A model generated the notes under the pieces. It saw only the letters and a list, made by a program, of their open reading frames with translations. It made no database searches and was not told the DNA's origin. A DNA stretch of 64,000 nt, taken from contig NZ_REFA01000006.1 in NCBI RefSeq assembly GCF_003852705.1, positions 1 to 64,000 of the forward strand. The letters are read 5' to 3'. This DNA comes from Amniculibacterium aquaticum. GTDB taxonomy: Bacteria; Bacteroidota; Bacteroidia; Flavobacteriales; Weeksellaceae. Both the position numbers and the translations under genes were made by a program. Shown piece after piece: positions 1 through 12,089 of this stretch. Every line of letters begins with the position of its first letter. Within the stretch, counting starts at the first letter, position 1.

Positions 1-110
1 ATGTATTTAGGTTGTCCTTCGGTTCTGTTTTCATCCACTGGAACAAATTTTAGGGTATTGTCTTTGCGGCTCATGCGGCCGGGATTGAAGAGATAATAGG
101 ATTTTTTCAT
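1..110 (-). CDS. cas1: Cas1 CRISPR integrase, N-terminal fragment
   Basis: Only the first 36 or so codons are inside the window; the gene runs off the left edge. The start ATG is at 110-108 on the minus strand. The translation begins MKKSYYLFNPGRMSRKDN, the characteristic opening of type I-B Cas1, the metal-dependent integrase that with Cas2 inserts new spacers into the CRISPR array. It is the last gene visible in the cas operon and follows cas4 in the usual order, but the two are separated by a four-helix-bundle gene and two repeat arrays. Its start codon lies 4 nt beyond the end of the left array, so its ribosome-binding region is made of repeat DNA. Cas2 and the array are expected just outside the window. 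Confidence 0.85.
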   Translation of the reverse strand, partial: MKKSYYLFNPGRMSRKDNTLKFVPVDENRTEGQPKY

Positions 111-113
111 CTT

Positions 114-182
114 GTGATCTGTGATTTGGTGATCTGTGATCTGGTGATCTGTGATCTGGTGACTTAGTGATTTAGTGATTGG
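114..182. repeat. Left 7/8-nt tandem repeat array (GTGATCTG type)
   Basis: Nine consecutive units starting with GTGA begin at 114, 121, 129, 136, 144, 151, 159, 167 and 175, so the spacing alternates between 7 and 8 nt. The commonest unit is GTGATCTG; the last three are GTGACTTA, GTGATTTA and GTGATTGG. The array fills the gap between cas1 and the four-helix-bundle gene and supplies the last codons of that gene (Asn-His-stop is read from AATCACTAA). It is in inverted orientation relative to the array at 573-655. It is too short and has no spacers, so it is not a CRISPR array. Confidence 0.85.
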
Positions 183-540
183 CGGGTTTTAGTTTGCTTC
201 TGTAGGAAGACATGACTTTGAGGATTTCTTCTGATTCATTTCTCAATTCAAATAATTTTTCTTCTGCTGTAAAGCCACCATCAATAAGCATTTCTATCCA
301 AAATAAAGTTTCGTCTGCTTCTTCTACAACAATACAGAGTTTTGCATATTTTTCTTTTTCTGATCTTGCCCTACAAACTGCTCTATAATTAGCCGCAACA
401 GAGGTAACCGACCGGATTAATTGTTTTCTAATAATGCTCAAAGCATCACTGTAATTAATTTCGGAGACAATTGTAATAATATCTAAGGCAAGTTTTTTAG
501 TTCTCGCTCGAAATAACTCATTAAATTCTTCTTGTTTCAT
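172..540 (-). CDS. Four helix bundle protein (23S rRNA intervening-sequence / bAvd-like family)
   Basis: A 122-residue, all-helical protein. The central segment with IRSVTSVAANYRA, then ARSEKEKYAKL and EEADETLFWIE, matches the signature of the PF05635 family. That family is encoded in intervening sequences of 23S rRNA genes and also includes the Avd accessory proteins of diversity-generating retroelements. Its members are small, basic and form pentameric helical bundles; their biochemical job outside retroelements is not established. Here there is no rRNA, reverse transcriptase or template/variable repeat nearby. The gene is in the same direction as the cas genes and is therefore probably transcribed with them. 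Its stop codon is formed by the flanking repeat array, which suggests that gene and repeats travel together. Confidence 0.8.
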   Translation of the reverse strand: MKQEEFNELFRARTKKLALDIITIVSEINYSDALSIIRKQLIRSVTSVAANYRAVCRARSEKEKYAKLCIVVEEADETLFWIEMLIDGGFTAEEKLFELRNESEEILKVMSSYRSKLKPANH

Positions 541-572
541 AAGATATCTATTTGATTTTTATATTACATTCC

Positions 573-655
573 ACCCAATCACCCAATCACCCAATCACCC
601 GATCACTCCATCACTCAATCACCCATCACCCATCACCCATCACCAGATCACCCAT
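573..655. repeat. Right 7/8-nt tandem repeat array (CACCCAAT type)
   Basis: Ten TCAC-containing units begin at 579, 587, 595, 603, 611, 619, 626, 633, 640 and 648, giving steps of 8,8,8,8,8,7,7,7 and 8 nt. The first units read CACCCAAT; later ones are CATCACC. On the minus strand this is a GGGTGAT array, inverted relative to the array at 114-182. It starts at the cas4 stop codon (TGA at 657-655) and ends about 30 nt before the start of the four-helix-bundle gene. The last codons of cas4 already resemble the repeat, so its extreme C-terminus may have been rewritten by the array. Confidence 0.85.
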
Positions 656-1182
656 CATTCATTCACATAACAAAATTCGTAATAGCTACAGCTTTTGCAA
701 ATCTTGGCATTGATGACCGGTGGACAGGTTTCGTCTTCTTTTAATTTTTTTATTTCGAGAACGGTATTTTCCAAATATAGAATATCATCTTCAGTAAGTA
801 TCACTTCTTCTTTTTGTCGTAAAATAGGATATTCGATGACGCCTTTTTCAGCTTCAATTCCTTTCAGTTTCATCAGCCATAGATAAAATTTCACCTGCCA
901 GATATGGGCTTGCTCTACTTTGTTGCTTCGTTTGGTTTCGTGGATAATTTTATTTTTCACATCAAAGAAATCAATTTTTCCTACGAGATTCAATCCTTCA
1001 AAATCGACACTCAATTCGATTTGCTCATAGCGTTCCGGTCTTTGTAGATAAGTTTCATCTTCAATTAATTTTCCATCAGCTACCAAGTCGGAGGTTTGCT
1101 CCATATTGATACCGTTGGCAAAGAGCCAAAGTTTTCGCTTACAAATGCGGTAGTAGTTGATATGGGTGCCGGTAATGTTCAT
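655..1182 (-). CDS. cas4: Cas4 RecB-like 5'-3' exonuclease, CRISPR adaptation
   Basis: Cas4 trims prespacers and helps choose PAM-proximal ends during spacer acquisition with Cas1-Cas2. The 175-residue protein has the RecB nuclease residues D71 (in VGKIDFF), E82 and K84 (HETK) and the QxxxY motif Q96-Y100 (QVKFY). The cysteines for the iron-sulphur cluster are C14 near the N-terminus and C162, C165, C171 at the C-terminus. The ATG at 1182-1180 is chosen because MNITGTHINYYRICKRKLW is the normal Cas4 opening; an ATG nine codons upstream lies inside the preceding gene. The start overlaps the stop of the RAYT transposase as ATGA, so translation is probably coupled to that gene. The C-terminus abuts the repeat array at 573-655. 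Confidence 0.9.
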   Translation of the reverse strand: MNITGTHINYYRICKRKLWLFANGINMEQTSDLVADGKLIEDETYLQRPERYEQIELSVDFEGLNLVGKIDFFDVKNKIIHETKRSNKVEQAHIWQVKFYLWLMKLKGIEAEKGVIEYPILRQKEEVILTEDDILYLENTVLEIKKLKEDETCPPVINAKICKSCSYYEFCYVNE

Positions 1183-1793
1183 GGTTTGTGGAATTTGTCT
1201 TCTTTCCAATTTTTAGGATTATTGATGATATAATTTTCTATCCTGATATATTCATCATGATTTCGGATGATATGATCATGAAATTTAGATTGCCAACCGA
1301 AATCCAATTCCGGATAATCGATATGAATTTGTTTGGTGCATGCCGATTTGTAGGAACGAATAATGGTAGAAACCGAACCTGGTTTTGGTGAAATATCAGA
1401 CATGAATTGGTTAGGATTGGTAGATTCTGTGGGGTTGTTGCATTGGTTTGTGGAATCGTTGCATTGGTTTGTGGAATCGTTGTATTGCCCTGTGGAATCG
1501 TTGCATTGCAACGATTTTACAGAATCCACCAATAATATAATTCCATGCACATGATTGGGCATTACTACAAATTCACCCAAACGGACATGTGCAAAATGTT
1601 CGGGAATATCTGCCCAAAAATTATGAGCGATTATCCCATTTTCATTTAATTGCATTTCACCGTCCACAATTTCACCAAAATAATGTTCTCTATTTTTGGT
1701 ACAAATGGTGATGAAATAGGCACCCGGATTTCTGTAATCCCAATTTTTCAATCGGAAGGATTCAATGCGGTATTTATTTTTGAATAGGGTCAT
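1179..1793 (-). CDS. REP-associated tyrosine transposase (RAYT, Y1_Tnp superfamily)
   Basis: A 204-residue HUH single-strand transposase. The HUH histidines are H81 and H83 in MPNHVHGIILL, and the likely nucleophile is Y188 in ENYIINNP, within the typical block that begins WQSKFHDHIIR. RAYTs act on extragenic palindromes rather than moving as classical insertion sequences. The gene lies between cas7 and cas4 in the cas operon, in the same direction, and its TGA overlaps the cas4 ATG. Residues about 95-122 are a low-complexity spacer of seven-residue repeats (CNDSTNQ type) encoded by four 21-bp DNA repeats; this is absent from ordinary RAYTs and sits between the HUH and Tyr motifs. A matching palindrome lies upstream at 1848-1867. 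The frame looks intact, so the enzyme may be active. Confidence 0.85.
   Translation of the reverse strand: MTLFKNKYRIESFRLKNWDYRNPGAYFITICTKNREHYFGEIVDGEMQLNENGIIAHNFWADIPEHFAHVRLGEFVVMPNHVHGIILLVDSVKSLQCNDSTGQYNDSTNQCNDSTNQCNNPTESTNPNQFMSDISPKPGSVSTIIRSYKSACTKQIHIDYPELDFGWQSKFHDHIIRNHDEYIRIENYIINNPKNWKEDKFHKP
1429..1516. repeat. Four 21-bp repeats plus inverted repeat inside the RAYT coding sequence
   Basis: Units begin at 1429, 1450, 1471 and 1492, an exact 21-bp period (seven codons), so the RAYT frame is kept. The core is GTGGAATCGTTGCATTG. The fourth copy is followed by its reverse complement, giving AATCGTTGCA (1496-1505), one spacer base, and TGCAACGATT (1507-1516), a potential hairpin. 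The same AATCGTTGCA word occurs in the REP-like block upstream of the gene at 1808-1889. Confidence 0.85.
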
Positions 1794-11959: not shown

Positions 11960-11969
11960 TTTTTAGTTC

Positions 11970-12061
11970 TTGGTTGTCGGTTGATGGTTGTTGGTAGTTG
12001 GTTGATGGTTGTCGGTATTAAAGAAACAATCATCACCTCATCACATCTTCACTTCATTACC
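11970..12061. repeat. Paired 7-nt and 8-nt repeat arrays without a gene between them
   Basis: The left array has GGTTGAT/GGTTGTC-type units at 11972, 11979, 11986, 11993, 12000, 12007 and 12014, an exact 7-nt period. After about 17 nt, the right array has TCAC-type units at 12033, 12041, 12049 and 12057, an 8-nt period. The left is G-rich and the right C-rich on the plus strand, the same inverted layout as around the four-helix-bundle gene at 114-655. It fills the gap between the adaptor and RND genes of the efflux operon. No reading frame or terminator is seen in it. Confidence 0.7.
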
Positions 12062-12089
12062 TTTTTACTTCCATCAAGTGTCCGTAATT

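Follow-up and report, generated by a model that had tools for sequence, protein, structure and literature searches.

What is a short gene of the four-helix-bundle (4HB) family doing between cas4 and cas1, enclosed by two inverted arrays of 7/8-nt repeats? The question is raised by a 64,000-nt stretch of Amniculibacterium aquaticum (contig NZ_REFA01000006.1, positions 1 to 64,000; hereafter the window), which opens inside a type I-B-like cas operon. The original prediction, made from the letters of this stretch, took the gene and its arrays for a compact mobile unit that does not encode its mobilising enzyme. Our comparison with related loci makes it probable that the unit is a compact intercistronic mobile element, i.e. 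a 4HB gene whose inverted 7/8-nt arrays serve as its ends and which sits at stop/start junctions. It is best read as related to the intervening sequence (IVS) elements of 23S rRNA. The bracketed layout belongs to the family across the bacteria and is not peculiar to this cas operon.

The bracketed element is about 550 bp long and is arranged as follows.

1..110, minus strand: 5' end of cas1, the downstream host gene and right side of the target junction (ATG at 108-110; the contig begins inside cas1).
112..182: 3' arm, an inverted 7/8-nt array, GTGATCTG on the plus strand and CAGATCAC in the sense of the gene; the 4HB stop codon lies in it, and about 4 nt separate it from the cas1 ATG.
172..540, minus strand: 4HB gene of 122 aa (PF05635 / TIGR02436), assigned by profile matches and predicted fold.
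541..571, minus strand: A-rich leader between the 5' arm and the 4HB start codon.
572..655: 5' arm, upstream of the 4HB gene on the sense strand, a 7/8-nt array, ATCACCCA on the plus strand and TGGGTGAT in sense; it starts at the cas4 stop codon.
655..1182, minus strand: cas4, the upstream host gene and left side of the target junction (stop codon 655-657).

Tandem Repeats Finder reports left arrays at 109-162 and 159-178 (GTGATCTG/GTGACTTA, periods of 7, 8 and 15 nt) and a right array at 572-654 (CACCCAAT, 10.8 copies). The repeat is of the GTGATNNG type, with eight GTGAT cores on the left and ten ATCAC cores on the right. The GTGAT core is common to both arms, the variable positions differ between them, and the spacing alternates between 7 and 8. 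One arm is C-poor and the other G-poor, the two are mutually complementary, and the ends form no palindromic hairpins like those of repetitive extragenic palindromes (REPs). The inverted local score between the arms is 19.0, compared with a mean of 9.0 and a maximum of 15.5 in 500 dinucleotide shuffles (p<0.002). The protein matches PF05635 (E 1.8e-12, 47.8 bits, cut-off 33.8) and TIGR02436, "four helix bundle protein" (E 7.6e-22, 77.6 bits, cut-off 24). Its predicted fold (pLDDT 94.9) is nearest to the solved structures 2rld and 2gsc, followed by 4dwl, the accessory protein Avd of diversity-generating retroelements (DGRs); with a TM-score of 0.75-0.81 against 2rld it belongs to the S23/IVP fold.

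What had been read from the letters stands, with small corrections, and neither of the two refutations set out with the prediction (homologues lacking flanking arrays, arrays at cas4/cas1 in relatives that have no 4HB gene) held up. The repeat search, the shuffles and the profile matches all support inverted 7/8-nt arrays around one PF05635-like gene, and the coordinates agree with a right array at the cas4 stop and a left array that supplies the TAA stop of the 4HB gene just before cas1. The PF05635 gene is the only one between the arrays, with no Y1/HUH transposase in the unit, as the idea of a unit lacking its own enzyme had it; its mobility is an interpretation that comes from the comparisons below. 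The prediction had also set aside rRNA intervening sequences and DGRs. Indeed, no rRNA family matches positions 1-2200 of the window, where the unit sits outside any 23S rRNA gene, and no reverse transcriptase (PF00078/RVT_1) is matched in the genome, which is 99.8% complete. PADLOC has no model matching the 4HB gene.

A second copy of the 4HB gene, 93% identical in nucleotides and with GTGAT arrays on both sides, is found on contig C42 (5080-5578, L096), directly before cas2 and a CRISPR array. The copy probably belongs to the same, broken cas locus and would lie beyond cas1 there. The A-rich leader at 541..571 is unrelated in sequence to the leader of that copy.

Homologues elsewhere are flanked in the same way, in Flavobacteriales and in other phyla. 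The genome itself has eight PF05635 places, each bracketed, as judged by eye, by inverted short arrays of a different unit, among them GTTGATG, GGCTTAG, AAAAGTGAAAAGCT, GTGAAGTT, TTTTGAA and GTGATNNG. Over 36 Flavobacteriales loci the upstream flank scores on average 17.1 against its own inverted downstream flank, 8.7 against those of other loci and 10.7 in direct orientation. For 74 relatives across phyla (Bacteroidota, Acidobacteriota, Nitrospirota, Chloroflexota, Bipolaricaulota, Verrucomicrobia and others) the own inverted partner gives 17.4, against 9.1 across loci. Of 104 loci, 100 have a best array period of 7 or 8, and the polarity of the arms is fixed, the 5' arm having G>C in 97/104 and the 3' arm the reverse in 96/104. 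As a control, 651 open reading frames (ORFs) of the same genome have a mean inverted-flank score of 9.6; the top eight scores belong to 4HB genes (four) and Y1-transposase genes (four), the only kinds of gene in this genome with such flanks. When 829 kb of this genome were scanned for inverted pairs 400-1100 nt apart, 12 places were found; in ten of them the pair encloses a 4HB or a Y1 gene.

The sites occupied include housekeeping operons (fadB/fadA, carA/carB, groES/groEL, coaD/TRIC), and 4HB copies on plasmids of cyanobacteria (Planktothrix, Dolichospermum, Nostoc) and Chloroflexota (Chlorohelix) are bracketed by heptamer arrays. Those of the three cyanobacterial genera have tandem intergenic heptamers of the kind known as short tandemly repeated repetitive (STRR) sequences. 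Some plasmid units lie in defence operons (L258-L265), as drmD/4HB/methyltransferase in DISARM and, in two phyla, as DUF1156/4HB/Swt1-HEPN. The DUF1156/Swt1 gap of Tolypothrix (L266) holds XisH, XisI and Uma2 genes instead, with no arrays, and in Oscillatoria a solo CTCCCGA heptamer array stands beside a DISARM methyltransferase with no 4HB gene (L267, 2650-2850). A phage origin of the unit was considered and dropped, as there was no match among 50,697 phage records.

Orientation and pairing of the arms bear on an RNA-level explanation, in which the unit behaves like an IVS: the arms would pair in the transcript, RNase III would cut the stem, the protein would act on RNA, and the element would spread by reverse transcription or recombination. 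The protein family is shared with the 23S rRNA IVS proteins, the fold resembles Avd, and in sense RNA the two arms pair in a stem of about 60 bp that closes over the whole 4HB gene (z -5.8). Moreover, all 57 scorable Flavobacteriales copies are in sense with both neighbours. However, outside Flavobacteriales only 45 out of 69 are, five being against both, which leaves 24/69 not in sense with both neighbours, and this genome has no RVT_1 reverse transcriptase. The sense-strand mispairs, 57 of G-U and 82 of A-C, also run opposite to what selection on a sense-RNA stem would give, and such selection is thus not supported. Taken together, we consider the RNA-level explanation unlikely. Among 56 array pairs, mispairs of a 5'-arm A with a 3'-arm G-type position number 61 and the reverse 37, a skew that perhaps comes from the A-rich leaders.

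If gene and arrays form one element, the repeat should belong to the protein and not to the site. At the same junction in different genomes the similarity of the arrays rises from 0.12 for proteins below 30% identity to 0.75 above 70% (r 0.78, 99 pairs). At the junction of fadA and an acyl-CoA dehydrogenase gene, for instance, one 4HB lineage has TTTTGAA arrays and another has GAATAAAGA arrays. The unit still tracks the protein at non-homologous junctions (Mantel r 0.35, p 0.001), where the relation is carried by pairs more than 50% identical; with permutation only inside genomes it is weaker (r 0.086, p 0.009). Relatives of the protein in Cyclobacterium and Aureispira share the GTGAT unit of the present locus; the paralogues in its own genome do not. 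Within one genus and at one site, the two arms of a genome match each other better than they match arms of other genomes (p 0.001). Where a junction is shared, the repeat unit thus goes with the protein lineage and not with the site, so gene and arrays travel together; that they are one co-inherited unit with fast-evolving arrays is well supported by these comparisons. A copying of the array unit from the 3' end of the host gene, which some sites had seemed by eye to indicate, was rejected, as one junction has lineage-specific units.

The predicted empty site is also found. We compared the cas4/cas1 junction in ten genomes of the family with related Cas4. In five of them the junction is contiguous (gap of -4 to 2 nt) and contains no arrays. 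One holds the present unit, and another (L071) a 4HB unit that is 38% identical, with GGTGAGA arrays. In two (L075 and L077) the gap is taken by a RAYT-like gene, i.e. a gene resembling REP-associated tyrosine transposases, whose repeats lie within the ORF or directly behind it, and in one (L073/G035) a gap of 1340 nt has an ATPase-like gene of 398 aa.

These junctions help to judge whether the arrays are host intergenic repeats in which 4HB genes settle, or the 4HB gene an accessory gene of its operons, e.g. in CRISPR adaptation or DISARM. Free-standing arrays do occur in this genome, and 4HB genes are found in cas, DISARM and DUF1156-Swt1 operons (PMC3936711). On the other hand, no arrays are seen at empty junctions, the repeat unit at one and the same junction varies with the protein lineage, many insertion sites are housekeeping operons, and at cas4/cas1 the gene is present in only two of the ten genomes and absent in eight, which is not the conserved presence expected of a CRISPR-Cas accessory gene. 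We find this explanation very improbable.

The RAYT-like neighbours suggest another possibility, namely that the element is non-autonomous and depends for its movement on a Y1/HUH transposase (RAYT or IS200-like) encoded elsewhere in the same genome. RAYT/Y1 genes use the same junctions, cas4/cas1 in L075 and L077 and fadB/fadA in this genome, and in the metH region of L094 (8080-8960) GTTGTTG arrays like those of 4HB units enclose, from outside, an IS200/RAYT-like gene and its REPs. But the ends of RAYT elements, palindromic REPs rich in GC, are unlike the 7/8-nt arrays, which are not palindromic, and no Y1_Tnp was detected in G036, which has five 4HB copies, or in G003, G004, G007 and G038, which also have 4HB genes. 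As these relatives show, the unit does not need a resident Y1 transposase, and we hold the involvement of one to be quite improbable, below the RNA-level explanation and above that of host repeats or accessory genes. More generally, a dependence of the unit on a resident RAYT or reverse transcriptase is not supported. REPs of RAYT genes were also rejected as a source of the arrays, being a different sequence class.

At the coaD/TRIC junction of one large genus, 4HB units with GTAATGAG arrays are found together with gene-less hairpins with GATAATTG arrays, a gene-less deletion form of the GTAATGAG unit and a decayed 4HB gene. Gene-less and decayed versions of the unit thus exist. The gene-less hairpins (L151-L175, genus g20) share a conserved core, about 40 nt long (ATGG..GAAAATTTGCTTA..GAAATCATT). 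Elsewhere in the window, at 11966-12076, mixed 7/8-nt arrays with no 4HB gene lie between two RND efflux genes, and similar gene-less arrays are seen at G000 C3:25290, C3:103613 and C14:32366.

From the multiple sites, the close copies at different sites and the empty sites we infer that the mobile element proposed here has moved. It would insert at the stop/start gaps that separate host genes, in most cases co-oriented with the operon, with the arrays as its terminal recognition sites. The 4HB protein probably binds its arrays, perhaps with one subunit per 7/8-nt unit. Such recognition is suggested because repeat unit and protein lineage covary, the solved relatives are oligomeric and Avd acts in a ribonucleoprotein. 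The protein may then hold the two ends, or the hairpin formed by them, together, while an enzyme acting in trans would carry out strand transfer. Slippage could cause the drift of array copy number and the variable positions, the shared core being kept by the binding protein.

Several observations weigh against this proposal. The case for movement is comparative. No target-site duplication was identified, the Cas4 of empty sites being about 50-75% identical and the junctions too diverged to read one. The unit encodes no enzyme for strand transfer. Some 4HB sites are vertically inherited across a whole genus, so transposition must be rare. Gene-less free-standing arrays are common and might have a life of their own. 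Eleven out of 82 loci score below 12.5, i.e. the arms are not readable in every copy. Finally, the solved 4HB relatives are pentamers, and a pentamer stoichiometry for the present protein is taken from them.

Among described elements the 23S rRNA IVS with a PF05635 ORF (Ralph and McClelland 1993, cited in PMC3936711) is the nearest. In both, one PF05635 gene lies in transcribed DNA between inverted repeats able to close a long stem. The present target, however, is a gap between protein genes, and the ends are tandem 7/8-nt arrays with a unit specific to the element lineage. RAYT/REP systems likewise have a single gene in intercistronic gaps, inverted repeats around it and gene-less copies elsewhere, and even use the same junctions. 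They differ in that RAYT encodes an HUH enzyme and the REPs are palindromic and GC-rich, whereas the 4HB unit has no enzyme and non-palindromic arrays.

Foldback (FB-type) transposons and miniature inverted-repeat transposable elements are eukaryotic or tied to a known transposase, and their subrepeat is fixed within a family. They resemble the 4HB element in having long inverted ends of short tandem subrepeats and gene-less derivatives, but the unit of the 4HB element diverges with each protein lineage.

The DGR protein Avd, which has a role in a ribonucleoprotein (PMC10053308), shares the four-helix-bundle fold (4dwl, 8ub7) at a sequence identity of about 10%. With no reverse transcriptase found in the present genome, a DGR partnership was rejected.

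PF05635 genes in cas loci were known. Zhang, Doak and Ye (2013, PMC3936711) reported 18 of them, often with cas4, and do not mention arrays. The claim that the layout is undescribed thus holds only for the bracket, as our search of the open-access literature found no paper joining the 4HB gene to flanking arrays. The cyanobacterial STRR heptamers and the TAACTGA repeats of Beggiatoaceae are intergenic and patchily distributed in Cyanobacteria and Bacteroidetes, with no evident mechanism of spread (MacGregor 2015, PMC4679880), and TTGTCAG repeats are reported from Nostoc (PMC2408588). Like the arrays studied here, STRR and TAACTGA repeats are intergenic tandem arrays of 7-nt units; they were described as direct arrays, and no four-helix-bundle gene is mentioned in PMC4679880.

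A great many genomes contain PF05635/TIGR02436 genes to which annotation gives no function, and the origin of the heptamer arrays has been a puzzle for decades. Joining the two gives both a testable explanation, with the arrays as ends of the unit that are probably read by its protein, and makes the 4HB unit a possible source of the long-unexplained bacterial heptamer repeats. We put forward, only tentatively, a pan-bacterial class of minimal mobile element, made of a non-enzymatic 4HB protein and lineage-specific array ends, whose remnants would be a major source of heptamer and octamer repeats in cyanobacteria, Bacteroidota and others. A unit that diverges fast and is yet co-inherited would turn the 4HB proteins and their repeats into a natural series of recognition pairs. 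That the same gaps in CRISPR, DISARM and core operons are captured again and again shows how operons tolerate insertions.

The cas operon of the window contains a RAYT-like gene of its own (1179-1793, minus strand), which overlaps cas4 by ATGA and has relatives in the cas4/cas1 gaps of L075 and L077. Inside its ORF are in-frame copies of its own GTTGCATTG repeat, and the repeats are located at 1437-1508 and 1808-1861.
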